The notes beneath the pieces were generated by a model that saw only the letters and a list, made by a program, of their open reading frames with translations, was not told the origin of the DNA and did not search any database. Source: an uncultured Ruminiclostridium sp. (GTDB lineage: Bacteria; Bacillota; Clostridia; Oscillospirales; Ruminococcaceae). Taken from it: a stretch of 64,000 bases of DNA. The position numbers were made by a program, and so were the translations under genes. Shown one piece after another: positions 4,264-20,784 of this stretch (position 1 is the first letter of the stretch; every line of letters starts with the position of its first letter). The stretch lies in contig CANQIB010000003.1 of assembly GCA_947623915.1 (NCBI GenBank), positions 1-64,000 on the forward strand. Direction: 5' to 3'.

Positions 4264-4264
4264 T

Positions 4265-4594: not shown

Positions 4595-5324
4595 CTTTTG
4601 CCTTTCTGCAATATTCCTCGTACAGTTCTATCCCTTTAACATGGCTGAAATTGAAATACTGCTCTTTTTTTATCCTGTATGTTCCTATTCTTTTCTGATT
4701 AAGTATCATCTCGTTATAGGCGGGGCAGACAAAGAAATTGCCGTTTATTCCCGCGTCCTTTTTTATCATGCTGAACGCGGATTCCACAAAATCGGAGGTG
4801 CGTTTGAAATAATAAAATCCCGTGGTCGCGTTATTGCTTATAGGACGCTTTTCCGCCGCTTCGGTCACTAAGCCCTCGTCATTCAGCCTTACATACGACC
4901 AGCGCGGGTGTATATCTTCAAAGGTTATCACTCCGCCGTCATAATCGTTTTGTATAAAACTGTCGAGCACCTCCTGAAGATCCGCCGTTACAAGCTGGTC
5001 GCCGCCTACTATTATCAAAGGCTCGTTCGGCTCAAAATAGTCCATTCCGAGCAGACAGCTACAAGCCGAACCTTTTGTCTGCCCCTGAGCGGTCACTATC
5101 GCGGCATTTGGCAAGAGCAGCCTTATCACGCTGTCCAGATGGTACTTTTCAACGTTGTTTTTGTTTAAAATAAAGATAAACTCCGCATTTTTGATTTTTG
5201 TCAAAGGCTCGATTATATGCTGAAGTATGGTCTTTCGGTCTATTTCATACAGCGATGTACAATACGCAAAGTCAGCCGCTTTGCTCTTCACTTCGTTTTC
5301 GACCATGGGAATAAGTATTTTCAT
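4581..5324 (-). CDS. Second nucleotidyltransferase-like protein, altered N-terminal loop
   Basis: A 247-residue paralogue of the 245-residue enzyme downstream. It shares the middle of the fold (GQTKGSACSCLLGMDYF, PLIIVGGDQLV, FEDIHPRWSYVRL and the ATTGFYYFKR region). The N-terminus reads MKILIPMVENEVKSKAADF instead of the G-x-G-x-R-F loop, so nucleotide binding may be changed or lost. It could be an inactive partner of the intact paralogue or have a different specificity. Its start codon is 1 base from the stop of the HAD gene upstream. Confidence 0.7.
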   Translation of the reverse strand: MKILIPMVENEVKSKAADFAYCTSLYEIDRKTILQHIIEPLTKIKNAEFIFILNKNNVEKYHLDSVIRLLLPNAAIVTAQGQTKGSACSCLLGMDYFEPNEPLIIVGGDQLVTADLQEVLDSFIQNDYDGGVITFEDIHPRWSYVRLNDEGLVTEAAEKRPISNNATTGFYYFKRTSDFVESAFSMIKKDAGINGNFFVCPAYNEMILNQKRIGTYRIKKEQYFNFSHVKGIELYEEYCRKAKDENK

Positions 5325-5954
5325 TTACTGCACCTCGCATCTTTCGATATTGTTTCGGATATTGTCGTAATTAACGTCATATACCGTTTCCACCTTCATT
5401 ACATTTGCGCCCGAAGCGGCAGCCGCCGCTATGCCGTTTTTGTTGTCCTCCACCACCAGACATTCCGACGGAGCAAGACCGAGCCTTGAAATTGCAACGT
5501 TATATATTTCGGGGTCGGGCTTTGCTTTTGTAACGTCCTGATTACTGAGAGAAAACTCAAGATACCGTTCAAGACTTGCCTTTTGCATCATTATATCGAC
5601 GGTCGCACGAATGGAGTTTGACGCCACCGCAAGCCGATACCCTTCCGATCTCAGCCTTGAAAGGGCATATTCATGCACAAAAAGCGGACGGCAGTTTACG
5701 AATATTTTCTCCATCGTGTATTCCTGCTTCAACGCGTTTATGTATTTGTGCAGACCCTTTGGAAGCTGCTTTTCCAAGGTCATCATCGACAGCTTGTCCG
5801 CTGTCGGAAGTCCGTCGTAGGTCACAAGATGCTCATATCTGCTTATCTCATAACCGAACAGTCCGAGCGCCTTATTAAGTGCTTCGTAATGCCATTCCTT
5901 TGCGTCTATCAAAACGCCGTCCATGTCAAATATTACAGCTTTGATCTTACTCAT
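5325..5954 (-). CDS. HAD-superfamily phosphatase (beta-phosphoglucomutase-like)
   Basis: A 209-residue HAD hydrolase. Motif I is AVIFDMDGVLIDAK (nucleophile and acid Asp), motif II is the Ser in LAVASNSI, and motifs III/IV are KPDPEIY and VVEDNKNGI. The helical cap between residues 15 and 80 is of the C1 type found in phosphoglucomutases and sugar phosphatases. I start it at ATG 5954, where ATGA overlaps the stop of the upstream GDPD gene. A longer frame to 5993 would overlap far into that gene. It probably handles a phosphorylated intermediate of the nucleotide-activated group made by this operon. Confidence 0.85.
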   Translation of the reverse strand: MSKIKAVIFDMDGVLIDAKEWHYEALNKALGLFGYEISRYEHLVTYDGLPTADKLSMMTLEKQLPKGLHKYINALKQEYTMEKIFVNCRPLFVHEYALSRLRSEGYRLAVASNSIRATVDIMMQKASLERYLEFSLSNQDVTKAKPDPEIYNVAISRLGLAPSECLVVEDNKNGIAAAAASGANVMKVETVYDVNYDNIRNNIERCEVQ

Positions 5955-6574
5955 TTGAAATATTCCTCCGCTTCCTTTGGCGTGTCGGTACAAAGAATAA
6001 GGTCATCCCTCTCTTTATACCTCTTTAAAATTTCCCACACAGATCTATTGTCCCTTTTGTGCAGTTCAGGCGATACTACCGAAACATATTTACCGAGATC
6101 CAGCAGCTTTCCGACGGTATCGGCTATATGTCCACATTCCGTGAATTGATCCAGCCACACACCTTTGCTTTGTTCCCAAAACGCTATCTTTTCCTCAAAC
6201 TCGCTGCTTCGGGTGAAAATGTTGTATCCGCGCTTTATGTAGATATACTGCTCCGGCACGGAGGAATCAAAGAGAAAATAATTCTTTTCGGTAAGACCGT
6301 ACTCCTTGAAAATATCCTCCGCCAGCAGATACAATCCGTCGGCTTTGACATTCAGAGCAAGGGCAGGCTTGCCGTATTTTTTCCAAAGCTCCAACATATC
6401 TGTCATAAGCGGGCTGTGCTTATCCGCCGGATTGTGGGAGATCACCATTTCCCCGTCGCGATCCCTTATGTCGGTCTCTATCCCGTAGCCGTTGGAAAAG
6501 GCTCGTTCAAACGCGGCAAGAGTGTTCTTTTCTTCTTCGGTTTTCCAAAAACCGCGGTGGGCTATGATTCGCAT
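5951..6574 (-). CDS. Glycerophosphodiester phosphodiesterase-like protein
   Basis: A 207-residue GDPD-family TIM barrel. RIIAHRGFW gives the HRG motif at the N-terminus, NTLAAFERAF and GIETDIRD the E-x-D metal site, and VISHNPADKHS the catalytic second His. It is shorter than the usual 240-250 residues, with no signal peptide, so it acts in the cytoplasm. In a glycan operon it may process a glycerol-phosphodiester decoration, or have been recruited to another phosphodiester; this is inferred. It overlaps the HAD gene by 4 bases and lies 2 bases after the nucleotidyltransferase domain gene. Confidence 0.8.
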   Translation of the reverse strand: MRIIAHRGFWKTEEEKNTLAAFERAFSNGYGIETDIRDRDGEMVISHNPADKHSPLMTDMLELWKKYGKPALALNVKADGLYLLAEDIFKEYGLTEKNYFLFDSSVPEQYIYIKRGYNIFTRSSEFEEKIAFWEQSKGVWLDQFTECGHIADTVGKLLDLGKYVSVVSPELHKRDNRSVWEILKRYKERDDLILCTDTPKEAEEYFK

Positions 6575-6576
6575 TT

Positions 6577-7242
6577 TTATTTTTCCTTTCCAAAATTTTC
6601 TTTCAGATAATCAAGCGTTGTCGGCGGCACCAACTGTGATATTTCTTCAAAATTATTTTCCTCCAGCAGCTTTCTTACTCTGCTGGCGCTTATTACGCCG
6701 CCGTTCGTTTCCTTTCGCGGAATTACTTCAAATTCAACTCCGTACTTCGGCAGTATTCTTGCCATGGTTTCATTATACTGTCTTGTTACATTGTCGAGAA
6801 GCTCTTCTCCGGCAAAGCGTACCGTTATTCCGAGCTGCGGCGCTATCTCCCTGCCGAAAAGTTCAACATCCATGCTCGGATCAACCGTGCTGTCCTGTAA
6901 TTCCGCTTTGTTGAAGTATCCGGAAAATGTAAGTGCCGATATTATGAATTTACCGCTTGGCAGAACGGTAACGTTTTTTAAGTCCTCCGTCCCTTTCTTC
7001 ACAAGTTCTATCCTGTCGGCAAACGGAAATATACTTTTATCCTCTTCCACAACGAAAATGTACAGTCTTTCTACCCTGCTTGCGGCATATTCCGCAAGGT
7101 ATCTGTGACCAAGCGTAAACGGGTTGCAATTCATCACTATGCTGCCAACTAAAGGGCGTAACGTTCTGAGCTGCGCCTTATACTGTTCAAGCTCCGCTTG
7201 ATATTGACCGATAGCGACCCCCCCCCCCGATTTTGAATACAT
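6577..7242 (-). CDS. Citrate-lyase-ligase-like nucleotidyltransferase domain (3' half of a frame-split gene)
   Basis: An open frame of 221 codons. From about residue 33 it is a cytidylyltransferase-fold domain like the catalytic part of citrate lyase ligase (GSIVMNCNPFTLGHRYL with the T-x-GH motif; GGVISASRVRKLL as the second ATP site). The first ~12 codons read through an 11-G run, and no ribosome site supports the nominal ATG at 7242. The upstream protein (7149-8414) is in the other frame up to the G-run. With 9 or 12 G the two would be one polypeptide. I therefore treat this as the distal domain of a phase-variable fusion, although internal initiation is possible. Confidence 0.75.
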   Translation of the reverse strand: MYSKSGGGVAIGQYQAELEQYKAQLRTLRPLVGSIVMNCNPFTLGHRYLAEYAASRVERLYIFVVEEDKSIFPFADRIELVKKGTEDLKNVTVLPSGKFIISALTFSGYFNKAELQDSTVDPSMDVELFGREIAPQLGITVRFAGEELLDNVTRQYNETMARILPKYGVEFEVIPRKETNGGVISASRVRKLLEENNFEEISQLVPPTTLDYLKENFGKEK

Positions 7243-8414
7243 ACGACTCCATATTGATGTACGGGAGGGAAATCCGATGGAATGTCGTATTTGAAATTTT
7301 TGAAAAAATCATTTTCTCGGAGGTATTCATACATTTTTTGAGCAAGCACTTTATTGCCACGCTCATTTATATGACCGGCATCGGCAAAAACCTCTCCATG
7401 ATCATGAGGACGGTCAAATATGTGATCGATATCAAAAAACGGTATCCCGCGAGCATGAAGTCCTTGCAGGCATATTAAAACAATATCATCTTTTTTTACA
7501 GGCAGCCTGTTCAAATTATAAAATATATCCTGATAACGACCGGAGTAAAATTGCGATACATTTTCCACGCGATATTTGTGACCGTTTTCGTTAAATATCT
7601 TTTGAAGGTAGCTTTCAATGGTTTTATCGTAAGGTGAACCGATACCGTAATAAATACAGGTCCCCATACACCATATCGTATTTTGATATTCACCCTCTTG
7701 ATTTGCGGTTTTACGAATACCGCCTTTAGTCATAACAAGAGGATGGTCGTTATCAAGAAGGTCTGTAGTACCGTCAAGGTTTGTTTTATTTCCGGATAAC
7801 GCTAAAATCGCATGGACTTCGTCATTGCTGTAGCCAAATTCGTCAAACCGTGTTTCTATCGTTTTACCGTTCCGTGTTTCAAGCTCACGCCTTAGCTGAT
7901 GAATACTTTTTTTCAAAACTTTCTTTTCATATTCAGAAGTATACTCATTGTTTTTTATGTTGGGGATATTTGTAACGATGACTTTTGCTCCCGTGTTTTG
8001 ATTTAGATAATCATATAACGGTCTTTCCGCATAAACATACTGTATGAATTGTCCGAGAAGACTATCAAAATATACGGTCTTATCGGCAGGCAGCTCTTTA
8101 AAGCGGTTGGTGGTGAGCATAATTATCCTGTCATATTTGCCTGTGTCATTGTAATTTATCTTATTAAACAACTGACCGTTCAAAACACACGCAACGCTAT
8201 GAGCAACAGTTACCGGCTCGCCTGAGATCAGGCTGAGCTGCGGCATTATCCTCTTATCGTAACGAAACTGTACATATATTTCCCATAAGAACTCAGGGTC
8301 GTATGAAGCTATAAGCGGATTTTTTATTCCGTTATCTATACAATACTGCGGCATGGAATATCCCGCATAAAAGCAGTCGCGCAGCCGGATACATTTGAGT
8401 TGGTCGGGGGTCAT
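7149..8414 (-). CDS. SGNH-hydrolase-like protein (5' half of a frame-split gene)
   Basis: A 421-codon frame. Its C-terminal half resembles SGNH/GDSL hydrolases used in glycan acylation. WCMGTCIYYGIG lies at the nucleophile position (Cys or Ser), LICLQGLHARG at the block III region, and DAGHINERGNKVLAQ is the terminal D-x-x-H block. The N-terminal ~220 residues are unassigned. After the G-run the last 22 residues (SLSVNIKRSLNSIRRS and on) look like out-of-frame noise, so the natural protein probably continues into the nucleotidyltransferase at 6577-7242. It overlaps the upstream 883-residue gene by 4 bases (ATGA). Confidence 0.7.
   Translation of the reverse strand: MTPDQLKCIRLRDCFYAGYSMPQYCIDNGIKNPLIASYDPEFLWEIYVQFRYDKRIMPQLSLISGEPVTVAHSVACVLNGQLFNKINYNDTGKYDRIIMLTTNRFKELPADKTVYFDSLLGQFIQYVYAERPLYDYLNQNTGAKVIVTNIPNIKNNEYTSEYEKKVLKKSIHQLRRELETRNGKTIETRFDEFGYSNDEVHAILALSGNKTNLDGTTDLLDNDHPLVMTKGGIRKTANQEGEYQNTIWCMGTCIYYGIGSPYDKTIESYLQKIFNENGHKYRVENVSQFYSGRYQDIFYNLNRLPVKKDDIVLICLQGLHARGIPFFDIDHIFDRPHDHGEVFADAGHINERGNKVLAQKMYEYLRENDFFKNFKYDIPSDFPPVHQYGVVCIQNRGGGSLSVNIKRSLNSIRRSSERYAL
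7218..7228 (-). repeat. G11 homopolymer tract at an SGNH/nucleotidyltransferase junction
   Basis: Eleven C on the plus strand, G11 in coding sense. Upstream codons end ...CIQN-R. With 11 G the SGNH frame runs on for 22 unrelated residues and stops at 7149. With 9 or 12 G it joins the VAIGQYQAELEQYKAQLR frame of the nucleotidyltransferase. The tract sits exactly at the linker between two complete domains. Confidence 0.8.
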
Positions 8415-11062
8415 GTCTTTTCTCCTTCCTTTGCTTCGCCTGCTCCATTCAAAAGCAATTCTCCAACCTCACAGAAATTATTAAGCGCGTTTTCGACTGC
8501 CTCGCCGACTTTATCTGCTGACTCTAATTGATAAGTCGCCGTTCTTAACCTTATGATCCTGTCGTCCATATTAAAAGCGTTGACCTTTGTTTTATCCAAG
8601 GCGTTAAGCAGCTTAGCCTTAGCAGAACACGGACAGGAATTTAATTCTATGCTGATAATTATTTTGTCGGGTTCGGCTTTTATAAACGCTGCAAATGATG
8701 ATGGAGACGCGCTGTCCGCAAACGGCCATGACCACCAGTCGGCGTTTCGACTCAAAACAAGCTCGGAATTTATTTTGCTGTTGGAAAACTTGTTGTAATT
8801 TATCCATGCGTCTCTTCCGTTTTTCATTGAAAAAAACCTGACTGCTTCGTTTTTTTCCAGTTGCGCGAACAACTCCAGTATCATTCTTCTGAATATATCT
8901 TCCCCATACATATTTAGAAGGACCGTCTTAAAGTGAGAAAGCAGCCTTCTTTCCGTTAAAATCCTTACAAACAAAACGAAATCATCATTTTCGCTCAACT
9001 CTTCCGGATTAAAAGTCAGAATTTCATTTTCATCAATAAAATTCGCTTTTACAAAGCAGGAAACCACGCAGGGATATTTTTCGGCGAGCTTATCAAGCGC
9101 ATCATCTGCCGATTGAGCAAAATCGGGGAAATTCCATTTTTCACGGAGGAGCAATTTTGACACGATCTTTGCTTCAAGCTCAGACTCGGCGTTTTCCGCT
9201 CCTGTCAAAAGACATTCAAACGCATCGTCGTCCGCTGTTTTAAACGGGAGCGAATATTTTCTGTTCAGGGCATATTCAGCCAAGGCTTCCCACTGCTCCG
9301 CGGTAAAAGCATCTTTTCCGAAATCATCGATCAGAAAATCCACCATATTATGGATAGAAGGGTCGCTCATACGTTCATCAAAGTGAGCTGAAACTATTTC
9401 TTTTATAAGGTCAAGGACGGCGTCCGCATAGGATTGCGGTTCGGTGGGAGGCGATAATTTGAATTGTCTTATTAAACTATTATAAAAATCTTTAGGTATT
9501 CTGTTTTTTTCTTTGGGCTCAGCATATTTACCGTAATAGTAATATGCGGAAATCGTATAGCTGTTAAGAGGCATAATATATTTTTCCGATGCAGCGATCC
9601 ATCTGTCAAATATGTAACACATACCATCTTCGTAAATTTGATTGCTCATATTCAGCCGGTTATATAATAACGCTTTGGCTGCCGTTTTTAATAATCTGGG
9701 CGTTCTGCTTCTCAATGCCGAGCTTAAAATGATTTCGGATAGATCACTATTGATCTTGCTTATTTTTTCAATATTTTCTGCCACCGCCAGATTAGCATTT
9801 GCCGAGTTGAAATAAGCAATGTTGCCTATCGAATCATAAAATGACAATTTTTCGGTTGTGCTTATCTGAGAAATATATTTGTCAAAAAGTATATCCAGAG
9901 CCTTGTTAAATCCTATGTCGCTTTTTATTATTATTGCTGATTGTTTAGGAACTAATGCTTTTTTCGGGTCAAGTTTCATCACGTCTTTTACAAATAATGA
10001 AAGCTCATCATACTCTTTTTTAGTTATATGACGTTTTTTTGCATAGCCATTAACAGCAAATTTACAGATTTCCTTGTACAGCTTCATATACCCTTTTGTA
10101 GGCAAACATTCTCCCTCAACTATCATTCGGAGAGCTTCCATATTTGAAAACGATACGATCCCATCTCTTATTAAGCCGATAGAATAATTACCTGTAAAAA
10201 TTTCGGTAAAGTCAAATTGCGGAATTTGTTTATTTACTTTGTATCTTTTAAACAGAAAAAAGCAGTTATAAAGCACTACAAAATAAAGAGCATAGAGAGA
10301 ATTTATAACACTTGGCAATTCAAAATCAAGTTTTTGCTCTGAAGATATTTGAGATAGGTAATTTGCGATACAAGACTGTATTTTATTTATGTTGTTGATT
10401 ATAGAAAAACTCATTGATACGTCGAAATTCGTGTATACATCAGATAAAATGGGAAATGATCCAACAAAAGGCCATAAAAAGAAAGCCATATCAGCCCAAA
10501 TATAAACATTCCAGCGTGTCCCTGTGCTTTCAAAGCTGATCATTTTATACATATCTTGTTTATAAGCCAAAAATGTTCTGTCACTCAACGCAAAAAGTTG
10601 GCTGGCCGAGTAACGCAATACAGCGATTCTATACTCTAATCCAAATTGTAAAGCGCCATGACAACCAAGTGTCATATCCGTTTTCCCAGATAAGATCTCC
10701 GCTATATCGCTTAGTCCGTCTAAGCACAAATCTGTTCTGCATTTAAGAACAAAAACATCGTCCGGTATAAAATCAAGTCCCGATTTGAGTTGAAACGCCT
10801 GACGAGCATAATTTATATGCATGAAGTTTCCAAGGCGCTCATCAAGTTGATTGAGCTCGACAGCATCTATATTCAGTGTTTTAAGTTTTGCTCTGAGATC
10901 CGGAAAGTTATCAATTTCGCCTTTCCATGTAGAAATAACTATTCCGTCAAGCAGCCCTTCCGCGCGATAATCACACAACATTGAAAGGATTATGTATAAT
11001 TCAAACTCCTGCCTTATCGCTCCGCACACTACTGCCCAGACCTTTTTGCCCATTATAGCCAT
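8411..11062 (-). CDS. Large WavE-like glycan synthesis protein
   Basis: An 883-residue cytoplasmic protein. Residues ~5-230 resemble the WavE lipopolysaccharide-synthesis family: VWAVVCGAIRQEFELY at the start, GIVISTWKGEID, then VLKCRTDLCLDGL, the WavE-type K-x-R-T-D block. The remaining ~600 residues are helical and unrecognised, with no membrane segment. WavE alone is about 300 residues, so the C-terminal extension is the odd part and may be a docking or second catalytic region. It follows a 163-bp AT-rich gap in which no confident promoter was found, and overlaps the SGNH gene by 4 bases. Confidence 0.65.
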   Translation of the reverse strand: MAIMGKKVWAVVCGAIRQEFELYIILSMLCDYRAEGLLDGIVISTWKGEIDNFPDLRAKLKTLNIDAVELNQLDERLGNFMHINYARQAFQLKSGLDFIPDDVFVLKCRTDLCLDGLSDIAEILSGKTDMTLGCHGALQFGLEYRIAVLRYSASQLFALSDRTFLAYKQDMYKMISFESTGTRWNVYIWADMAFFLWPFVGSFPILSDVYTNFDVSMSFSIINNINKIQSCIANYLSQISSEQKLDFELPSVINSLYALYFVVLYNCFFLFKRYKVNKQIPQFDFTEIFTGNYSIGLIRDGIVSFSNMEALRMIVEGECLPTKGYMKLYKEICKFAVNGYAKKRHITKKEYDELSLFVKDVMKLDPKKALVPKQSAIIIKSDIGFNKALDILFDKYISQISTTEKLSFYDSIGNIAYFNSANANLAVAENIEKISKINSDLSEIILSSALRSRTPRLLKTAAKALLYNRLNMSNQIYEDGMCYIFDRWIAASEKYIMPLNSYTISAYYYYGKYAEPKEKNRIPKDFYNSLIRQFKLSPPTEPQSYADAVLDLIKEIVSAHFDERMSDPSIHNMVDFLIDDFGKDAFTAEQWEALAEYALNRKYSLPFKTADDDAFECLLTGAENAESELEAKIVSKLLLREKWNFPDFAQSADDALDKLAEKYPCVVSCFVKANFIDENEILTFNPEELSENDDFVLFVRILTERRLLSHFKTVLLNMYGEDIFRRMILELFAQLEKNEAVRFFSMKNGRDAWINYNKFSNSKINSELVLSRNADWWSWPFADSASPSSFAAFIKAEPDKIIISIELNSCPCSAKAKLLNALDKTKVNAFNMDDRIIRLRTATYQLESADKVGEAVENALNNFCEVGELLLNGAGEAKEGEKT

Positions 11063-11225
11063 ATCAGCATATCCCCCTGTAATTCAATATTAAAAAATAA
11101 TTTTCTATTGCTGTAATTTTTTCAAATCCCCATAATGTTTTTATCAAAAAAATACTGAACATTTCTTTAAATTTAGACTACTATTACAAAATTTAACTTT
11201 GTTTAATTACAAAATAACGAGAATT

Positions 11226-12206
11226 TCATTTTTGTTTTTTCGCCCTCACCATGCGTTCATTCAGCATATCCGCAATTTTTTCAGGCTCCATCTTTTGCAC
11301 AAGTCTTGCGTCTTTTCCGGCTCCGGCAGTCCAGTTATTGTATGCGGGGCCGTAATCCGAGACCAAGATCTTCTTCTCCGTGTTGATCTCTATTGAACCC
11401 GTTTGTATATCCCAGTAATCCCCTGCGCCCTCGACCGCAAACATTATCGTCGTCAGATCCCAGCTCTGACGTTTATATGTGCCGGTTTTATCGTTTCCGT
11501 AAATATCATAGGCGAGCCTTACCGGGTCGTCCTCGGTCATCTCGCCGCGTTTATCTCCGGTGAAAATAACCTCGCCTATCTCCTGACCGCTCCATAAAAT
11601 CGATACCGGGCAGTTGTGTATAACGTAATATGCGGCGTCAACGTCAAGCCTTATGTTATATTCACCGGCAGGCGCGGATTTTGGAAATCTCCCGCCCATT
11701 ATTATACAGAGCTTTACCTTTTGCTTTACCAGCTCTATACCGTTCAGCGGACTGTATTTATCGCTTTCCGATTTAAGCAGGTCATGAAGATTATTCAACG
11801 CTCCTATTACGGTGATGACAACGCTGTTATCCTCCGCAGATGACAAAGCCTCACGGTATACCTCCAACGCCGACCTTGCCGATTTATCGTCGGGATAGTC
11901 TTTTCCGTATTTCTCGGCAATGACGCTCTGATAAGGTGATTTTCCGCTGCTCGGACAATGCGGAGATATCCCCACGGGGACATTCGGAAAACCGTAATAC
12001 GCATTTATTCCGCCGATACATTTTACGGCGCATCCGCTGTTGCAGGAGCCTACGGTCGCAAGGACTTCCGCCCGTCCCTCCTGAACATAGGAGTAGAGTA
12101 CAGCCAAAGCGCCGGTATCGTCAACGTCGGTATCCATATCCGTATCAAATATGATTTTAACGGTCTTATCGGGAACGTATGAAAATCCACTCTTAATTTC
12201 ATTCAT
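11226..12206 (-). CDS. Nucleoside hydrolase (IUNH family)
   Basis: A 326-residue inosine/uridine-preferring nucleoside-hydrolase fold. The N-terminal VKIIFDTDMDTDVDDTGAL is the Ca-binding DTDxDxDD motif. TVIGALNNLHDLL and the later KLCIIMGGRFP also match. The C-terminal His position is not obvious. It would hydrolyse the N-glycosidic bond of a nucleoside or related ribosyl compound. This is an unexpected function inside a surface-glycan operon. Its ATG overlaps the end of the 613-residue gene by 8 bases, so it belongs to the operon. It may act on a nucleoside-like intermediate; that is inference. Confidence 0.85.
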   Translation of the reverse strand: MNEIKSGFSYVPDKTVKIIFDTDMDTDVDDTGALAVLYSYVQEGRAEVLATVGSCNSGCAVKCIGGINAYYGFPNVPVGISPHCPSSGKSPYQSVIAEKYGKDYPDDKSARSALEVYREALSSAEDNSVVITVIGALNNLHDLLKSESDKYSPLNGIELVKQKVKLCIIMGGRFPKSAPAGEYNIRLDVDAAYYVIHNCPVSILWSGQEIGEVIFTGDKRGEMTEDDPVRLAYDIYGNDKTGTYKRQSWDLTTIMFAVEGAGDYWDIQTGSIEINTEKKILVSDYGPAYNNWTAGAGKDARLVQKMEPEKIADMLNERMVRAKKQK

Positions 12207-14040
12207 CTTGAGTTTCTTCCTCTGGCTTGTCCTGCACGTCGGACAAAGGCTCGTCTTCTTCGTCTGATGCTTCTAATTCTTTTTTCGCTTTTTCTATCTC
12301 GTCTTTGATTTTTTTGTTGGCGAGCCTGAGATTATACAACTCAAGCTCGGTCTTTAACTCGGCTTCTTCTTGTTTAAGCTCTGCTTTTGCAGAATTGTCG
12401 CCCTCGTATTTTTTTAACTGAGCGTTTAACTGTTCGATTTGTTTTTCCTGCTGAGCTATGCGCTCTTCAAGCTCCCGATGCTGCGACACTATCTCCGCAT
12501 TTTCGTCCATATATTTTTCAAGCTGCTGCTCCGTCGCTTTTAACATTCCGTTTAACGCCAGAATTTGTGTATCTTTATCCATAGTGGAAAAAACATTAAG
12601 CTCAGCGCCTGTTTGAGTAAGCCTTTTTGCAAATTTCATATCGTTTACTTTCCTCCTTATATCGGAATTGTCCGTAAATATAACTATGTGTTCATAGCTT
12701 TCAAGACTTCCGTATTCCTCGTCATTATCCGCCTTGATTTGAAGTTTTTTTACCGTAAACTCATGAGCTTTCATCATACCGTAAAAATAATATGAATCGT
12801 CCTCGTTGAGAAACACGATAATGTCCGACGCGGTCCTTAGATCAAACAAAGCGTTCAAGTCGTCGTCGCTCGGCTTATTCTGTGCGCCGACAAAATATAT
12901 CGTGGGGGAATCGGACTTTACAATGTCGTTTATATTTTCGCAATAATTTACCTTTTGCTTGATCGCGATCCCGCCGAAGTTTATCATGTTTTCAAGCTGC
13001 TTGGAATTTGTTCCTATGGCACAGACCTTATAATCAGGAAATTGCTCCATCATTTTCACGCAAAAATAATAGCGATGGTTCTGCCAAAAAGACTGAATAT
13101 ATTCCTGATTGAATATCAATATTTTTTTGCATATGGAAGAAATATTGTATATGCCTGTCGAGCTTACGGAAGCCCCTACCTCGAAAGGCTCATTAAGTAT
13201 CAGCGTTAACAACTCAGCAGGAAAATGCGCGGGAACTGTTTCCACGTTATCTATAAAAGAACGATACGGCATAAGGTCGCTCGGATGAACTTTGTAATAC
13301 AGACCGTACCCGTCCAGATAATAATCCGTGGTCAACTGATAACAAATTGCATGTTCGTCATAGGTCATTATGCGAAGATTGCAGAAATGCTGCGAAAGCA
13401 TTAAAACGCTATTTGCCTTAAACAAAAGGTTTTTTGGAACATCAAAAAAATCAAGTAATATTTTCTTTTGCTTGTCGGTCAGATAGTTTAATTCTTCTAT
13501 AACATCATAATTTTCAGCCATGGGGTCATAAAAGCCCGAAAGCTGAGCATCCGTTTTTACATATTTCTTCAGTACGCAGGGATTATCGCCGGTGTATAGC
13601 CCGTTATTTAAAGCCATTTCATATCTTTGGGGCAATATTCTTTCGTCATCCGCCATAATTGGTTCAGGCTGAGAAAGCCGTCCGTCCGCTTCCTCAAACC
13701 AGTTAAACGGTTTGTTTTTAAAAATCAGCCATGAACCGAAATAATATTCAGCTCTACATACATTTATTTCCGAAAAATCACTAATGTCAAGTCCGTCGGT
13801 CTTATCACGAAATTCTTTTTCAATATTCCCGAAAATCAGCTCAGGCGCAAGTCCGTTATAATTTTTCTCCCAGTTGAATACAACGCATTTTTTAAATATG
13901 CTTTTATTTTCAAGCCCTTTAAAGCTCCGCACCAAAAAGCCCGGAACTAATAAAACTGCCTCTTCATCGGGGTGAAACCGCAGCTTATGAACTGCGAATT
14001 TCAAAATATGGTACGCAGTTATAGCGTGGTAAAGTATCAT
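12199..14040 (-). CDS. Sialyltransferase-like glycosyltransferase with coiled-coil tail (tentative)
   Basis: A 613-residue protein. The middle segment DGYGLYYKVHPSDLMPYR, followed by VPAHFPAELLTLILNEPFEV and VSSTGIYN, recalls bacterial GT-B sialyl- and polysialyltransferases (an HP motif in the donor site, then a conserved P-x-E-x-L and an S/T-S-x-G block). This fits the adjacent neuB and neuA. Residues ~490-600 form a long charged coiled coil (EQQLEKYMDENAEIV, IAQQEKQIEQLNAQLKKYEG), ending in an acidic tail. There are no membrane segments. The ATG overlaps the previous gene's TGA and has GGAGG upstream. The family assignment is my inference from short motifs. Confidence 0.5.
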   Translation of the reverse strand: MILYHAITAYHILKFAVHKLRFHPDEEAVLLVPGFLVRSFKGLENKSIFKKCVVFNWEKNYNGLAPELIFGNIEKEFRDKTDGLDISDFSEINVCRAEYYFGSWLIFKNKPFNWFEEADGRLSQPEPIMADDERILPQRYEMALNNGLYTGDNPCVLKKYVKTDAQLSGFYDPMAENYDVIEELNYLTDKQKKILLDFFDVPKNLLFKANSVLMLSQHFCNLRIMTYDEHAICYQLTTDYYLDGYGLYYKVHPSDLMPYRSFIDNVETVPAHFPAELLTLILNEPFEVGASVSSTGIYNISSICKKILIFNQEYIQSFWQNHRYYFCVKMMEQFPDYKVCAIGTNSKQLENMINFGGIAIKQKVNYCENINDIVKSDSPTIYFVGAQNKPSDDDLNALFDLRTASDIIVFLNEDDSYYFYGMMKAHEFTVKKLQIKADNDEEYGSLESYEHIVIFTDNSDIRRKVNDMKFAKRLTQTGAELNVFSTMDKDTQILALNGMLKATEQQLEKYMDENAEIVSQHRELEERIAQQEKQIEQLNAQLKKYEGDNSAKAELKQEEAELKTELELYNLRLANKKIKDEIEKAKKELEASDEEDEPLSDVQDKPEEETQDE

Positions 14041-16319
14041 TTTTTACCTCCAAATACATTAGACAAGTTTTCTCTTTTCGTCGGATCTACTCCGGTATTA
14101 TAACTTAAATTCCCTATAATTGAAAAAGTAGCTTTTCTGTTGTTAAGCAGTAATCTGATAGGAATAAAAGTATCATACCCATTAACATTCATTAGATATG
14201 AATACTTAGAAAACGCATGATAGTATTGTTCGCAAAAATCCATTATTCCTTTTTCGATCTCTTTATACCCTCTATAATTATCTATTTCGGGAGGAGCGAA
14301 TTCCATTTCATTTTTATCTGAAAATCCTAAAAATGAATTTTGAGGTGCAGTAAACATTTTTTCAACCATTTCCAATGTCAAAGGAGAATCATTTCTCATT
14401 CTGTCTCGGATTTCTCGATTTAAGCCCGGACCGAACATATAACATTCTATATCCGACGACAACATTTGCGGAGCGTTTTCTCTGGTAGTTAAAGACCCCA
14501 TCATATACATTTTAACTTTTGCGGTATTATCCGATTCTCTCATTATTCTCAAAATTTTGTCCTTTAACGGACATAAACTTTTTGCGCTCCAACCAACATC
14601 TACTATTGCAATAGAACTGCAATCTTTAACGACATTATACAGATAGTCTTTTGTTCTATCTTTGGAGTTAATTAAAATCCGCTCTACTTTATCCCAATAT
14701 TTTACCAACAGATCACATACTATACTTGTATTGCTATCAGATATCAAGCCGGACGACAACAGTCCGTTTCTTTCAAACACCTTTTTCATTTCCGAAAGGC
14801 CAACCCAGTCAAGCATTGCTCCAATTGTGTTGTTTTTTTCGCTTTGTTCCAATATAACACGCTGCAAAAAATGATATCTCTCGCCCGGCTCGACATTTCT
14901 AAAGGCTGTTATGCGTGACCAAAACACATACTCTCCGGGTATATCATTAAACATTTTGTCATAAATAGTTTTTAATAAGAAACCGTCTCGCGACAAAAAG
15001 AGTATCTTATCTATACCCGCTTCTTTTGCCTTATTATGTATCCAATTAACATATCCCATCGCCGCAAGGCCGCCGTAAACAAATCCGTATTCCCATAATC
15101 GTGAAAAAGTTTGTATACCGTTATGCAGGGTGGAATTTACAATGCCACGGTATGCAGAATCGATTAACCATGAAATGCCGCGGCTGCGGTGAGGATCTCC
15201 TAGATCGCGACAAGCTTGATAATATTTTGACGGTATACCGACTTTTTTTGCGCCCTCTACATCAGCTCCTTTATTATCTCCTACATGTATAACTGATGCG
15301 TCTCCTATTTTAGATAACAATATTCTGAATAAATCACCATTTCCTTTTCCGACATGGTAATCACAGGACACTAAAATATCTTCAAATCCTTCATATCCGC
15401 AATGTTGCAACAGTATTTTCATTTTTTCTTTTTGTAGATACATATTGGAAGTAACATATATTCTTTTTCCGGCAGCTTTTAAAATTTGGAAAACCCGATA
15501 CATATAAGGATTTGCAAAGCACATATCAAGCTCGGTCTCAAATTCTGTTTTTGCACCTTTTTCAGGGTCTATACCTGTATAATATGCTACTCTTTCATAT
15601 ATCTCTTCCAACGTCACCTCATTATTTTTTTGTAAAGCATTTCGACGCTTACGCACCTCTTCTTCTGATTTTTTTCGTACACTATCAAAATTAAAAACCC
15701 CCAGTTTTTCGCCTACTAACATAAAGACGTCAACAGGTTGATTTAACTTACGCAATATCAGTGTATCAAAAATGTCAAATGAGATAACGTCAAATTTTAT
15801 TATTGACAACGCAAAACGATAAACATCAGGACGTTTTCCTTTTTCCGATTCAGGGCCATCCATATATGGCATGACGGCTGTGGGAGCTGCCGAAGCCTGA
15901 GGCTTAGGCGAGGGTGTTGCAGGCGCAGCAGCCTTTGCCGCGGGAGCAGGCGGTTTGGGTGCGGGAGGCTTTGCCGCAGGTGCGGGTTTTGGAGATGGCG
16001 CAGGCGAAGCAGGTCTTGCGGGAATATTTGCAGGCACATTGACCTCTTCCGCAGGAGTAAACTGCATCGGCTCCTGCCTGTCGGCATAAACAAAAACACC
16101 GCTCCCTTTTACCGTATAATCCCTTGGCGGCTTGGGAAAATCTCCTTTTTTCCCTTTTTTGTAATATTTATTAAGCTGACGCAGGAATTTAAACGATTTC
16201 AAGCGGTGTGAACGGTGATATTCGGGATTTGAATCCTTATATCCCTCATAATGTGCCTGTACCTCAGGATATGTATGCACTAACTTGAAATATAGTCTGT
16301 CTTTGTACTTTTTGAACAT
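14037..16319 (-). CDS. COG5610-like HAD-domain protein with Pro/Ala linker
   Basis: A 760-residue protein. Residues 1-60 are basic. Residues ~95-150 are a low-complexity Pro/Ala/Lys linker. At ~175 a HAD-like domain begins (DVISFDIFDTLILRKL = motif I; RIYVTSNMYLQ = motif II; VIHVGDNKGADVEGA = motif IV), which is the COG5610 predicted-hydrolase type seen in polysaccharide loci. Residues ~430-740 form a second, unassigned region containing KILFLSRDGFLLKTIYDKMF, itself HAD-like in look. It may process or transfer phosphorylated sugars. A GAGGAG site precedes the ATG, and its stop overlaps the next start. Confidence 0.65.
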   Translation of the reverse strand: MFKKYKDRLYFKLVHTYPEVQAHYEGYKDSNPEYHRSHRLKSFKFLRQLNKYYKKGKKGDFPKPPRDYTVKGSGVFVYADRQEPMQFTPAEEVNVPANIPARPASPAPSPKPAPAAKPPAPKPPAPAAKAAAPATPSPKPQASAAPTAVMPYMDGPESEKGKRPDVYRFALSIIKFDVISFDIFDTLILRKLNQPVDVFMLVGEKLGVFNFDSVRKKSEEEVRKRRNALQKNNEVTLEEIYERVAYYTGIDPEKGAKTEFETELDMCFANPYMYRVFQILKAAGKRIYVTSNMYLQKEKMKILLQHCGYEGFEDILVSCDYHVGKGNGDLFRILLSKIGDASVIHVGDNKGADVEGAKKVGIPSKYYQACRDLGDPHRSRGISWLIDSAYRGIVNSTLHNGIQTFSRLWEYGFVYGGLAAMGYVNWIHNKAKEAGIDKILFLSRDGFLLKTIYDKMFNDIPGEYVFWSRITAFRNVEPGERYHFLQRVILEQSEKNNTIGAMLDWVGLSEMKKVFERNGLLSSGLISDSNTSIVCDLLVKYWDKVERILINSKDRTKDYLYNVVKDCSSIAIVDVGWSAKSLCPLKDKILRIMRESDNTAKVKMYMMGSLTTRENAPQMLSSDIECYMFGPGLNREIRDRMRNDSPLTLEMVEKMFTAPQNSFLGFSDKNEMEFAPPEIDNYRGYKEIEKGIMDFCEQYYHAFSKYSYLMNVNGYDTFIPIRLLLNNRKATFSIIGNLSYNTGVDPTKRENLSNVFGGKK

Positions 16320-16341: not shown

Positions 16342-17493
16342 TTAACCGTTTTTTTCGATGATCATCTTATCCACTATCTCTCTTATCACGCCACCGCCGC
16401 CGTTTGCGGAGGTAACGTGGACCGACGCTTCCTTTACGATTTCGGCGGCGTCATGCGGACAAAACGCGTGCCCGACCTCATTCAAAACAGGAATGTCGTT
16501 TATATCGTCGCCGACATATGCTATCTCCTCCATAGGTATGCCGTACTTTTCCGAAAGCTCTTTCACTACCGACAGCTTATCCTTTACTCCCATGTGCAGC
16601 TCGTCTATTTTTAATTTTTCTGCCCTGCGTCGATTAAGCTCAACATTTTCGCTTGTGATGATGCCGGTAATTATGCCGTGAGCCCTTAATATCTCAAAGC
16701 CCATTCCGTCCCGCGTGTTGAATTTCTTCAGTTCGTCTCCGTTTTCGCTGTAATACATTCCGCCGTCGGTAAGGCAGCCGTCACAATCCGTCAACAGCAT
16801 TTTTATCACGGGTCTTTCCTTTTTTGCTTCCCTCTTTTTCATCAGCCGCTCTATTATTATCCAGTCGTCCGGCTCGTCGATCTCAAAGGCGGTATCTTCC
16901 GGCATTTCGTAGGCTTTTATCCTGCCCGAAAGTCTACATTTGCTTTTTAAAAGCGCACTGCGTTCGGTAATGTAGAACGCGCCGTTCTCCATTATATAAC
17001 CGTCAAAATCCTGTCTGCGCGGTCTGCTGTTAAAATCGTAATTTTTAGGCACGGCGAACCCGTCCCTGCCGTTTTCCCAAATGAAACGGTACTGTCTTAC
17101 CACAGACAGCACGCTGTCGCAGTCGGGCTCTTCAAACAGCCGAAACCCTCCGTCTATATCCGCCGACGTCAACAACGGAGAGGTAGCCTGTATCAGTATG
17201 ATATTGTCAAAATCCGTTTTCTCGGCAAATTCAAGCATTGCAAACTCCGTCGAGGCGGTATCGTCGGCGGACTCTTTGCTCCTGCCTATTACCGTTACTT
17301 TGTCTATGTCGAATTTTTCAACAGTCGAGCGAATAACGTCGCTGTCCGTCGCCACATAGACCTTGTCTATGTATTCGCTTTCCGCGGCTGCTTTCACCGT
17401 CCAGTAAACCAACGGTTTTCCGTTCATCGATTTAATGTTTTTTAGCGGGATAGATTTGCTTCCGCCGCGCACGGGAATAAACGCTGCATTCAT
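16342..17493 (-). CDS. neuA: CMP-nonulosonate cytidylyltransferase fused to HAD phosphatase
   Basis: A 383-residue bifunctional protein. Residues 1-220 are an acylneuraminate cytidylyltransferase (AFIPVRGGSKSIPLKNIK nucleotide loop; ATDSDVI; LIQATSPL; MENGAFYITER), which couples CTP to sialic or legionaminic-type acid. Residues ~230-380 are a KdsC/YrbI-type HAD (MLLTDCDGCLTDGGMYY; AYVGDDINDIPVLNEVG), expected to dephosphorylate a 9-phosphate or 8-phosphate ulosonate. Fusion of the two steps is known in other NeuA proteins. It lies 11 bases after neuB. Together they supply a CMP-activated nine-carbon sugar for the transferases downstream. Confidence 0.88.
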   Translation of the reverse strand: MNAAFIPVRGGSKSIPLKNIKSMNGKPLVYWTVKAAAESEYIDKVYVATDSDVIRSTVEKFDIDKVTVIGRSKESADDTASTEFAMLEFAEKTDFDNIILIQATSPLLTSADIDGGFRLFEEPDCDSVLSVVRQYRFIWENGRDGFAVPKNYDFNSRPRRQDFDGYIMENGAFYITERSALLKSKCRLSGRIKAYEMPEDTAFEIDEPDDWIIIERLMKKREAKKERPVIKMLLTDCDGCLTDGGMYYSENGDELKKFNTRDGMGFEILRAHGIITGIITSENVELNRRRAEKLKIDELHMGVKDKLSVVKELSEKYGIPMEEIAYVGDDINDIPVLNEVGHAFCPHDAAEIVKEASVHVTSANGGGGVIREIVDKMIIEKNG

Positions 17494-17504
17494 ATACTTA
17501 TCAC

Positions 17505-18377
17505 TTACCTTTTTCTATACTTCAGCTTATCTCTTTGCACCTGTTCTATCGGCAGTATCTCCTGCTCCTTTTCCGTCAAAGCCTCATGCACCGCGTTGAG
17601 ATTCCTGACCAGCTTGCGTATCCCGTCAGGTTCGAGCGAAGCGGCGTGGTCCGTGCCTTTCCATGTTCTGTCCAGCGTGTAGTGACGTTCGATATATGAC
17701 GCGCCAAGCGTATATGCGGCGATATCTACAGCTATGCCGAGATGATGGCCGGAAAATCCTATCGCTTTTACTCTGCTTTCGTACTTTTCGCGCATACGCG
17801 TTATCTCCAGCAGACAAACATCTTTAAAAGGTACGGGATAACCCGATGTACAGTTGTAAAGCACGAGGTCTTTATTTCTCCCGTTTTCCTCGAAAAGCCT
17901 TACTATTTTTTCCTCTTCCTCATGGGTGGTCATGCCGAACGACAGTTGTATTTCTCCCTGATAATTGTCACAGAGCCATTGCAGCATTTCATAATGATTG
18001 TTGCATGCCGACGGTATTTTGATAAACTTCGGTTTTAAGCCCGCGATCTCCTTTGCGGACGTCATATCCCAAACGGACGTCGAGTAAGTGATACCGAATT
18101 CCTCACACCACTCTTTGAGCTGAGCGTGCTGATCCACGGTAAACTCAAGGTATTCTCTATGCTCGCCGTAGGTCTTTCCGTAAGAATTGGCGGGATTAGG
18201 GTGCGGAGCGTTGTACTGCTCGGGAGTAAGCAGCTCCTTATTGCACCTTTTTTGAAATTTTATCGCGTCGGCTTTACAGAAAAATGCCGCGACTTTTATC
18301 AGCTCCTTGGCTATCTCCATTTCTCCTTTGTGGTTACAGCCCGCTTCGGCTATAACGTAGGGCTTGCTGTAGTTCAT
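17505..18377 (-). CDS. neuB: Nonulosonate (sialic acid) synthase, short form
   Basis: A 290-residue NeuB-type synthase condensing PEP with a six-carbon amino sugar. Visible blocks are YVIAEAGCNHKGEMEIAKEL, AIKFQKR, FIKIPSACNNH, YNCTSGYPVP, GFSGHHLGI and IERHYTLDRTWKGTDHAASL. The TIM barrel is complete, but the chain ends soon after it. The ~60-residue SAF (antifreeze-like) domain that closes the active site of classic NeuB is missing; barrel-only homologues exist. No NeuC epimerase gene is in the window. AAGGAGG precedes the ATG, 24 bases after the recombinase homologue, so both are probably on one transcript. Confidence 0.88.
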   Translation of the reverse strand: MNYSKPYVIAEAGCNHKGEMEIAKELIKVAAFFCKADAIKFQKRCNKELLTPEQYNAPHPNPANSYGKTYGEHREYLEFTVDQHAQLKEWCEEFGITYSTSVWDMTSAKEIAGLKPKFIKIPSACNNHYEMLQWLCDNYQGEIQLSFGMTTHEEEEKIVRLFEENGRNKDLVLYNCTSGYPVPFKDVCLLEITRMREKYESRVKAIGFSGHHLGIAVDIAAYTLGASYIERHYTLDRTWKGTDHAASLEPDGIRKLVRNLNAVHEALTEKEQEILPIEQVQRDKLKYRKR

Positions 18378-18401: not shown

Positions 18402-19334
18402 TTATTTTATCTGTTTTATGTAACTCGCTTTGTTAAACGATTCCATTATACGAATTTTGGTATTCATTGTGGGCTTTGCGCAGTACGGCAGTACGTTCTG
18501 TACGGTAGCGTTGCCAAGTATTTCGGACAGCGCCGCGATATCGGGACTGACGCAGCGTTCGATAAACAACTTTCTCAGCTTGCCGAAAGTTATATTCGGA
18601 AGCCCTTCTCTATTCAAAAACGACCTTAATCTGTACTGCATAGTCCTAGGCTCCAAAGGAGCGCTCGTGCCTGACAAAAAATATTTTTCGCCGTCAGTCA
18701 CGAACGGTCGGAGATACTCTGCGAGCGGCGGAGTGACCGGCACCGTCCGCATGCCGGCACGACTTTTCGGAGCGTCCATTATCAATCCCCCCGCATCGCC
18801 CATAGACACTCTTTGAATCGTTTTGCTGACTGTGATCGTGCCGTTTTCAAGGTCTATATCCGACCATTTCAGCGCACAAAGCTCGCCTATACGCAATCCC
18901 GTATACAATGTCACAAGTATCCCCGCTTTTGTGAGATCGGGTCTGTCAAAAAGCACTCTGTACATCTTCTGAAAGCTGTATTCGTCATATACCGACGCAA
19001 CTCCCGAAACGTTTTGTTCCTTTGGCAGCTCCAGACCCGCTGTCGGATCAACAAAATCATATTTATTTGACAGATATTTCATTATCATTTTTAAAACGGA
19101 CAATATATTTGCCGTATACCTCTCGCTCATGCCCTCGGATAAAAGATGTTCTTGGAACATTTTTACCTTTTCGACTGTAATTTTATTGATGCGTATATCG
19201 GCAAAATACGGCAGTATATTCTTTTCGAGTTTTACCTTATATTGCGCGTAGGAGGAAAGCCGAATACGGCTTTTTATATGGTCGATCCATTCCGCCGCGC
19301 CCACGCTGAATAAAGGACAGCTTTTTGCCGTCAT
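18402..19334 (-). CDS. Tyrosine-recombinase homologue with lost catalytic residues
   Basis: A 310-residue paralogue of the recombinase at 19475-20527. The N-terminal core-binding domain and the first catalytic Arg (LYTGLRIGELCALKWSDI) are kept. The H-x-x-R-H box is GKLRK instead of HALRH, the H/W position reads GNATV instead of GHSGV, and the Tyr aligns with Cys in LPYCAKP (a Tyr lies one position earlier). It is therefore probably catalytically dead. It has a GGAGG site, and it is the first gene of the glycan operon, 24 bases before neuB. It might bind recombination sites as a regulator of inversion or of the promoter; that is inference. Confidence 0.8.
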   Translation of the reverse strand: MTAKSCPLFSVGAAEWIDHIKSRIRLSSYAQYKVKLEKNILPYFADIRINKITVEKVKMFQEHLLSEGMSERYTANILSVLKMIMKYLSNKYDFVDPTAGLELPKEQNVSGVASVYDEYSFQKMYRVLFDRPDLTKAGILVTLYTGLRIGELCALKWSDIDLENGTITVSKTIQRVSMGDAGGLIMDAPKSRAGMRTVPVTPPLAEYLRPFVTDGEKYFLSGTSAPLEPRTMQYRLRSFLNREGLPNITFGKLRKLFIERCVSPDIAALSEILGNATVQNVLPYCAKPTMNTKIRIMESFNKASYIKQIK

Positions 19335-19402
19335 CTTCTCACCTCCGACTTGTTTTTTAAAAATTTTTGCGTTATATTTAAATAAACGGTTATTTTTTCA
19401 TA

Positions 19403-19421
19403 AATTCCGTCATTTGCGAAA
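19403..19421 (+). repeat. Left inverted repeat of candidate invertible segment
   Basis: AATTCCGTCATTTGCGAAA, an exact reverse complement of 20616-20634. It lies 69 bp upstream of the start codon of the first glycan-operon gene and 53 bp past the recombinase stop codon. Flanking bases are partly similar, so the recognition site may be longer. Confidence 0.8.
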
Positions 19422-19474
19422 GATATTTCATCACGGTCGAGGGATAAATTGTCAAAGGGCAAAGAACCGCGTTA

Positions 19475-20527
19475 TTATGCGGCAAAACGCAGATTTTTCA
19501 TAAAACGTTTTTTTCGCTCAAGGGAAGAATGTACATATCTGTTGAGTGTTATTTCTACGCCGGAATGTCCGAGAATTTCCGACAGGGTCTTTATGTCAAA
19601 TCCCATTTCCACGCAGTTTGTGGCGAAAACATGGCGCAGCGCGTGAAAGTGTATTGACGGCAGTTTTGCTTTTTTCAGCACGGACTTGAATCTGTATTGC
19701 ATAGTGCGCGGTTCGACCGGCTTTTCCATGCCGGAAAGGAAAAAGCAGTCCCCCTCCGCCTTAAATTTAGTCAGTAGCTTTACGACGCGGTCGGGAATGG
19801 GAACGACTCTGACCGAGGACGCACTTTTAGGCTCGGTGATGACCAGCTTTGTGCCGTGCGGACAGCTTATACGCTGAATGGTTTTGGAAACCGACAAAGT
19901 TTTGCCCGAAATGTCTATATCCGACCATTTCAGCGCGCAAAGCTCGCCCAGTCTTATACCGGTATACATACAGAGCATTATCCCTGCGGAGGTCACGTTC
20001 ATGTTGTCGCAGAGCCATTTTTCCAGCCGTTTGCGCTGAACGCTGTCCGGCAGAGATATCTCCGCTCTTTTCTTTTTCGGCAGAATGACCTCCGATATAT
20101 TGTTTTTAATGTTGTGCCTTTTCTCTCCGTATTTCAAAACGGATTTAAAGAGAATGACTATATCCGCCACATATCCGGCTGATAATCCGTCGGCAAGCCG
20201 TTCGGTAATAAATCCTCTCAGCATATCCGGCGTGAGCTCATCGGTGCAGAGAGAGCCGAAACGAGGCAGGATATGTGCCTGTGCTTTTCCGACATAATTT
20301 GCAAAAGTAGATTCTTTTACCTTAAATTTCATTTCCTCGAGCCATTCGGCGAAAAGCATTTTGACCGTCAAACGCTCGTCGGATACCTCCCGTGCGGATA
20401 TGTACGCCGTCATTTTCCGCTCCACCTCCGCTTTAGACCTGCCGTAAAAATACCGCGTCTTTACTGTTTTGGAATCACGGAACCTGCCCTCAAAACGCCC
20501 GTCATTCCGTCTGTAAACATTTTTCAT
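19475..20527 (-). CDS. Tyrosine recombinase (integrase/invertase)
   Basis: A 350-residue phage-integrase-family recombinase with all catalytic positions: Arg in YTGIRLGELCALKW, His-Arg-His in FHALRHVFA, His in GHSGVEIT and Tyr in LNRYVHSS near the C-terminus. An N-terminal arm-binding-like strand set (RRNDGRFEGRFRD) precedes the SAM-like core-binding domain. I use ATG 20527, which has GGGAGG six bases upstream; the frame is open to 20623, but those residues are unlikely. It lies between 19-bp perfect inverted repeats, with a divergent outward promoter beside its start. It probably catalyses inversion of its own segment, although an integrase of a decayed element is the alternative. Confidence 0.85.
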   Translation of the reverse strand: MKNVYRRNDGRFEGRFRDSKTVKTRYFYGRSKAEVERKMTAYISAREVSDERLTVKMLFAEWLEEMKFKVKESTFANYVGKAQAHILPRFGSLCTDELTPDMLRGFITERLADGLSAGYVADIVILFKSVLKYGEKRHNIKNNISEVILPKKKRAEISLPDSVQRKRLEKWLCDNMNVTSAGIMLCMYTGIRLGELCALKWSDIDISGKTLSVSKTIQRISCPHGTKLVITEPKSASSVRVVPIPDRVVKLLTKFKAEGDCFFLSGMEKPVEPRTMQYRFKSVLKKAKLPSIHFHALRHVFATNCVEMGFDIKTLSEILGHSGVEITLNRYVHSSLERKKRFMKNLRFAA

Positions 20528-20547
20528 TTTTTTCCTCCCGATTTTTA

Positions 20548-20576
20548 TTGACAACCATATTTTTTTGTGATAGAAT
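20548..20576 (+). promoter_or_regulatory. Outward sigma-A promoter inside the invertible segment
   Basis: TTGACA (20548-20553), 17-base spacer, TAGAAT (20571-20576). It points right, through the right inverted repeat (39 bp beyond) towards hairpins at 20676-20772. After inversion it would fire left, through the left repeat, into the glycan operon. Confidence 0.75.
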
Positions 20577-20615
20577 ATGAATGTATCTGTAGATATTATC
20601 GCTTTATTTCCGTGT

Positions 20616-20634
20616 TTTCGCAAATGACGGAATT
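20616..20634 (-). repeat. Right inverted repeat of candidate invertible segment
   Basis: TTTCGCAAATGACGGAATT, a perfect inverse copy of 19403-19421. It lies just outside the recombinase start region and its divergent promoter. Confidence 0.8.
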
Positions 20635-20670
20635 AACGAAAGTTTTCCTTGTTTTTCTGACAACTATAAC

Positions 20671-20702
20671 AAAAAACGGACAGGACTGAAACACCTGTCC
20701 GT
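20671..20702 (-). terminator. Hairpin terminator, minus-strand polarity
   Basis: ACGGACAGG pairs with CCTGTCCGT across a 9-base loop. On the minus strand it is followed by TTTTTT. It would stop transcripts entering the invertible segment from the right. In the plus direction it lacks a T-run but would still form. Confidence 0.65.
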
Positions 20703-20712
20703 TCATCTTGTT

Positions 20713-20738
20713 AAAAATCCTCCCTACGGTCGGATTTT
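20713..20738 (-). repeat. Partial copy of the palindromic element
   Basis: The reverse complement matches the core of the elements at 20-77 and 25391-25448 (AAATCCGACCGTAGGGAGG at 20737-20719). The flanking palindromic arms are degenerate (CAGTTTGTC and TTTTTAACAAG). Confidence 0.55.
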
Positions 20739-20751
20739 TGACAAACTGCTG

Positions 20752-20784
20752 CCGTCTATCACCGATAGACGGTATTTTAATTTT
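20752..20784 (+). terminator. Hairpin terminator or leader hairpin, plus strand
   Basis: CCGTCTATC-acc-GATAGACGG followed by TATTTTAATTTT. It lies downstream of the outward promoter at 20548 and upstream of the separate promoter at 20904. In the present orientation it probably ends the outward transcript before the lipoprotein gene. Confidence 0.6.

Follow-up and report, generated by a model that had tools for sequence, protein, structure and literature searches.

The recombinase of the Hin flagellar phase switch is a serine recombinase, and the promoter of that system fires out of one end of the invertible segment. Here we describe a promoter cassette in 64,000 nucleotides from an uncultured Ruminiclostridium sp. 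(positions 1 to 64,000 of contig CANQIB010000003.1, hereafter the window) that, judging from its sequence, is very probably a phase-variation switch: a tyrosine recombinase, here called RecA, would flip the promoter segment in which it is encoded and so control a glycan operon, whose first gene encodes a catalytically dead paralogue, RecB. The likeness to Hin is that the recombinase gene lies inside the invertible segment (PMC5903667); the differences are that the enzyme is a tyrosine recombinase and that a dead paralogue is the first regulated gene.

The RecV switches of Clostridioides difficile and the invertons of gut Clostridia with nearby tyrosine recombinases (PMC5903667, PMC11892184) share with the window cassette the type of recombinase, a clostridial host and the control of surface functions by inversion. 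No dead partner is described for them in the accessible text of these papers, unlike RecB here, and two Clostridia group-139 invertons of about 255 bp are, unlike our cassette, too short to hold a recombinase gene. The capsule loci of Bacteroides are similar in having several glycan operons per genome, some with invertible promoters, and a regulator as first gene, most of these operons being headed by UpxY and UpxZ (PMC7315117). The available account of B. fragilis describes one master serine recombinase, Mpi (PMC5903667), whereas the window cassette encodes its own tyrosine recombinase. Invertible promoters, recombinases inside them (as in Hin) and tyrosine invertases in Clostridia are already known; searches of the open-access literature gave no description of a tyrosine inverton that holds its own recombinase and has a dead partner, which does not prove its absence.

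Anatomy of the cassette

The defining parts of the locus are as follows.

19396-19421, plus strand: left recombination site, with outer arm TTTCATAAAT, 6-bp spacer TCCGTC and inner arm ATTTGCGAAA; 19403-19421 is perfect
20616-20641, minus strand: right recombination site, an inverted copy with a spacer identical to that of the left site
19475-20527, minus strand: recA, a catalytically complete tyrosine recombinase of 350 amino acids inside the segment; the open reading frame extends to a TTG at 20623
20548-20576, plus strand: outward promoter TTGACA-N17-TAGAAT, matching 11 of 12 consensus positions and reading out through the right repeat, away from the operon
18402-19334, minus strand: recB, a catalytically dead tyrosine recombinase paralogue of 310 amino acids and the first operon gene

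The 19-bp perfect inverted repeats at 19403-19421 and 20616-20634, noticed in a first-pass annotation of this DNA, are real and extend to 26 nucleotides at 92% identity (19396-19421 and 20616-20641). With up to three mismatches allowed, these are the only two copies in the window, while shuffled sequences gave 0.04 matches on average and two or more in 1 of 100 shuffles. By our own division into arms and spacer, each repeat looks like the core site of a tyrosine recombinase, in which inverted arms flank a 6-bp spacer shared by both copies. The 1.2-kb segment between them holds one gene, recA, and one outward promoter, so that inverted sites bracket a promoter and a cognate recombinase with a full set of catalytic residues is encoded in cis. 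The annotation had recognized both this recombinase and its promoter, correctly: RecA matches PF00589 (E 8.8e-29) and PF14659, which makes it a tyrosine and not a serine recombinase, and the residues R-K-H-R-H-Y are complete in the window protein and in all 57 RecA relatives. The best sequence match of RecA is the Tn1549 integrase, and translation likely starts at the ATG at 20527 rather than at the upstream TTG.

The search for further copies of the 19-bp repeat that the annotation had proposed yielded a third exact copy in the same genome, on contig C14 (locus L015, G000:C14) and 80 bp away from its end. The last 168 bp of C14 are 99% identical to 20536-20703, the right end of the cassette, and the last 77 bases are identical. 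Since C14 carries both the repeat and this near-identical end, the cassette is duplicated in part or whole in this genome, and the contig seems to end where assembly broke off within a second copy.

A class-wide outward promoter and swapped flanks

We compared 54 cassettes, namely scanned loci with a RecA score of at least 120 and a repeat of at least 16 nucleotides at 85% identity, deduplicated on the last 200 residues; type-A matches without such a repeat and three complete recB cassettes with imperfect repeats (L111, L116, L119) fall outside this set. The promoter reading outward at the 5' end of recA had a median score of 18.1, against 14.8 for the inward direction and 13.95 and 13.5 at the other end; shuffles, which preserve base composition only, gave about 14-15. 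It scored above all 30 shuffles in 47 of the 54 cassettes, and its spacer measured 17 bp in 51 of them (a length slightly favoured by the score, which adds 0.5 for it). As read from sequence, this layout is that of an invertible promoter and not that of an insertion element.

Homologous flanks were found on swapped sides of the cassette in 16 of 49 locus pairs, where the pairs share many loci and the 16 swaps come down to five inverted cassettes (L118, L187, L021, L176 and either L019 or L022). Both flanks are swapped between L159 and L187, and the left flank of L019 matches the right flank of L022 from the repeat onward, each pair coming from the genomes of different species; between L117 and L118 it is the recB side that changes ends. 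The promoter points away from recB in nine of ten complete recB cassettes, the window included, and toward it in one (L118). Among the 54, 31 are unambiguously away, six toward, ten two-sided and seven unassigned, the last including L018, L114 and L118, whose recB was lost by the simple gene caller. The window is thus in the promoter-away state, the commoner one. These comparisons uphold the annotation's proposal of an invertible promoter with its own tyrosine recombinase, sequenced in the promoter-away state, and the conservation of one orientation, which it named as grounds for rejection, does not hold for the class, as seen in relatives rather than in strains of the same species. The bias may mean that flipping is slow or asymmetric, or that only a few loci are on at any one time. 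We dropped RecB as its cause, given that cassettes without recB show the same bias.

RecB, a conserved recombinase without its chemistry

The annotation took 18402-19334 for the first glycan gene; it is instead a second tyrosine recombinase gene lacking the full catalytic set, and a NeuB homologue comes next. So the switch itself had been recognized, while the dead recombinase as its first regulated gene and the multi-copy family to which it belongs had been missed. RecB matches PF14659 (1.6e-12) and PF00589 (2e-12) and does not carry the R-K-H-R-H-Y set of active enzymes. Both catalytic histidines are lost in all 16 full-length RecBs, the lysine in 13 and the tyrosine of the nucleophile column in 15, and the first arginine is replaced by lysine in five (five partial sequences at contig ends, L163, L164, L166, L167 and L168, lie outside this count). 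The RecB sequences nevertheless group as one and are under purifying selection. A fold model predicts core-binding and catalytic domains with a retained DNA clamp, that is, a tyrosine recombinase fold; the closest solved structure is the Tn1549 integrase (PDB 6en2, 6emz, 6emy), a transposon integrase that has the catalytic residues which RecB is without.

Distribution of the cassette family

Whole or at contig ends, RecB occurs in five of 71 genomes of the genus (G000, the window's own, and G005, G018, G029 and G035), all of them with at least two copies or fragments, in a profile search at E of at most 1e-50 in which matches whose locus was not fetched were classed by score alone. There are ten complete recA-recB cassettes, one in G000, five in G018, three in G029 and one in G035. 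Each of the ten has recA enclosed by inverted sites, with the start of recB just outside one of them. The repeat pair was found automatically in seven; the other three pairs (L111, L116, L119) match at 21, 19 and 19 of 26 positions with an identical central spacer, and shuffles did as well in 0, 2 and 0 of 200. Where recB cassettes have imperfect repeats, as several do, the differences lie mostly outside the spacer. An apparent tracking of the spacer with RecB rather than with RecA was set aside as plain linkage, recB adjoining the repeat.

In the window's genome a second recB, adjoining a different repeat, stands at the end of contig C5, and C2 and C13 carry two repeat-flanked recombinases beside which no recB was found. 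Outside the genus, RecB is present on two Acetatifactor-labelled contigs of one metagenome-assembled genome (L017, L018), and a search of 248 genomes of the family (E at most 1e-72; one of 31 rows without a locus) found it in one genome of another genus, G299, in two copies. These dead RecB-like recombinases (L200, 8806-9723; L201, 8517-9476) have no repeat-flanked recA in the 18 kb fetched, and after one of them come the gene of a more distant integrase, with its histidines and tyrosine intact, and then a UDP-galactopyranose mutase gene.

Across L111 to L119, RecA is alike within a genome (in G018, C2 is 91-92% identical to C25, C11 and C4), and RecB only 60-62%, which suggests gene conversion of recA between the cassettes of one genome.

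Candidate promoters and terminator-like sites around the probable switch

Further signals in and beside the cassette are listed here.

20595-20623, minus strand: candidate weak recA promoter TTGCGA-N17-GATAAT, 9 of 12 positions, with its -35 box within the right repeat
20676-20702, minus strand: hairpin followed by T6, terminator-like for leftward transcription
20750-20784, plus strand: terminator-like stem-loop (stem 20750-20774) and T-rich tail, lying in the path of the outward promoter as sequenced
19335-19402, minus strand: recB leader, with a ribosome-binding site
19350-19378, plus strand: weak promoter candidate TTGTTT-N17-TATATT, directed into the cassette and not significant in the window (p 0.23)

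Both hairpins had been annotated as lying in the path of the outward transcript; this stands for the stem at 20750-20774, which is terminator-like in one scan though unreported by a stricter hairpin script, whereas in the one at 20676-20702 the T-run stands to the left, which would make it a terminator of leftward transcription. In the recB leader, where the annotation had likewise seen no clear promoter, no sense promoter scored above shuffles (p 0.45), and we dropped this candidate. Inversion had been expected to place the outward promoter about 100 bases before the operon, and in the flipped geometry the end of its -10 box indeed lies 127 bases from the recB start codon. The candidate recA promoter would, we infer, persist in both orientations.

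The cassette-facing leader promoter stands at the same position in seven of 12 recB leaders and is strong or significant in four (three G018 cassettes and G000 C5). It would read antisense to recA when the switch is off and sense when it is on, making orientation-dependent control of recA possible.

At 20701-20749, beside the cassette, lies a hairpin repeat of about 48 bp (AAAAATCC...GGATTTTT) that recurs in at least 37 other places in the genome (40 of 85 candidates scored) and is matched in sister species too; we read it as a repetitive extragenic palindrome (REP)-like intergenic repeat.

The operon behind recB and the neighbours of other cassettes

Downstream of recB the window contains the following genes.

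17505-18377, minus strand: NeuB-family nonulosonate synthase, directly after recB
16342-17493, minus strand: cytidylyltransferase fused to a KDN-9-P / KdsC-type HAD phosphatase
7149-16319, minus strand: further co-directional operon genes (a HAD-domain protein, three without a family match and a nucleoside-hydrolase-like gene)
3526-5993, minus strand: additional genes with nucleotidyltransferase and HAD matches

Down to 7149 the largest intergenic gap is 163 bp. The NeuB homologue is short (290 amino acids) and below both NCBIfam cut-offs, which makes it uncertain which nonulosonic acid is produced.

A glycan- or sugar-nucleotide-type gene follows recB in 13 of 15 loci, scanned for one or two downstream genes each (more in the window; L114 and L164-L168 were left out). 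The families are NeuB, the rhamnan-synthesis protein RgpF, an IspD-type cytidylyltransferase (two loci), UDP-galactopyranose mutase, a galactofuranosyltransferase domain and glycosyltransferases of families 1, 2 and 8; of the remaining two loci, L163 has no match and L201 a HAD-type hydrolase. The ten genes compared next to cassettes without recB include those for LytTR response regulators, helicases, a BspA/dockerin-type surface protein, a beta-helix protein and a TadZ-like protein; two of the ten gave no match. The LytTR regulators lie at 7501-8229 in L019, 1575-2306 in L022 and 2622-3338 in L144, and through such adjoining regulators some switches may control whole regulons.

Proposed mechanism and alternative explanations

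In the mechanism that we favour, RecA would recombine the two inverted sites and flip the 1.2-kb segment. In the sequenced state the strong internal promoter would fire rightward into the terminator-like site, leaving the operon off or leaky, and in the flipped state it would drive recB and the nonulosonate/glycan operon. RecA would be made from its weak promoter in both states, and RecB mainly in the on state and in excess over RecA; because the on state yields RecB first, the ratio of RecB to RecA would report orientation. By binding the repeats or forming mixed complexes with RecA, RecB would then alter the flipping rate, most likely stabilising the on state. That RecB modulates flipping at all, in either direction, has in our view about an even chance. 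It keeps the clamp, has lost the chemistry and is encoded first in the state that it would sense, and for these reasons its presence is best explained by modulation of RecA at shared sites. As a tentative extension, RecB may be a domesticated dead recombinase that senses switch orientation and sits on the shared-arm repeats, both of its own cassette and of sister cassettes, locking the active locus and blocking the flipping of the others, so that one glycan at a time would be expressed through control of recombination and not of transcription.

Several observations weigh against this picture. The outward promoter did not exceed all shuffles in seven of the 54 cassettes, and L188 has a better promoter match at the opposite end. 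Homologous flanks are on the same side in 33 of the 49 pairs, L117 and L118, both from one genome, are paralogues and not one locus in two states, and both orientations at homologous loci were seen in relatives only, not in the window's genome; inversion may therefore be slow, given this agreement and the 31:6 orientation bias. T-tailed hairpins are stronger beyond the promoter-side (far) repeat in 32 of 54 cassettes and on the near side in 21 (median energies -9.7 and -7.4), in the window the script reported one hairpin inside recB but none beyond the far repeat, and a far-side terminator is as a class feature weakly supported. The off state may leak, because recA reads toward recB and no terminator was found in the interval between them. 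Most of the 54 cassettes were found with no recB alongside, so recB is not needed for flipping; the alignment behind the RecB fold model consists mostly of RecA-type relatives; and the role of RecB in the switch is deduced from sequence.

UpxY and UpxZ are a NusG-like antiterminator or its inhibitor, and RecB might likewise act on transcription, as a repeat-binding activator, an antiterminator-like factor or a trans-inhibitor of other glycan loci. In this respect recB has the position that these regulators take at Bacteroides capsule operons (PMC7315117), and several differing recB-headed operons occur per genome, for example five in G018. The Pfam and NCBIfam matches of RecB are, however, to recombinase families only, as is its predicted fold, and none is of UpxY/UpxZ type. 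RecB is presumably unrelated to the NusG-type UpxY, and we consider a role in transcription doubtful.

RecB might also be a directionality factor, with mixed RecA-RecB synapses favouring one direction of flipping and so setting the off bias. Its expected production mainly in one orientation, which follows from the geometry, and the imperfect repeats of several recB cassettes would fit, but the off bias is present in cassettes without recB too, which makes this explanation unlikely. Factors of the Xis type are small winged-helix DNA-bending proteins and RecB is a 310-residue recombinase fold, although it could function like one despite the different fold.

It is improbable that the recombinase-to-operon orientation is the true on state, with recA, recB and the operon on one transcript and the outward promoter serving as an off-state sink: the open interval between recA and recB and the predominance of the sequenced orientation would agree with this, but the candidate recA promoter is weak (9/12) and the outward one near consensus. 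That the segment is a small mobile tyrosine-recombinase element, with the repeats as its ends and an incidental promoter, could be read from the partial copy at the end of C14 and the several cassettes per genome but is highly improbable and not favoured, given the homologous flanks swapped around inverted cassettes, the spacer common to both sites and the class-wide outward promoter.

Implications

The phase-variation switch favoured here suggests that Clostridia hold a large family of promoter switches, each self-contained and worked by a tyrosine recombinase. The regulatory principle that we offer as new is a conserved, catalytically dead recombinase encoded by the very operon that is switched, and its place as first switched gene suggests a built-in feedback device. 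If RecB does couple orientation to flipping, the locus would be a simple natural memory device, and it would offer a way to test the choice that these bacteria make among their surface glycans.
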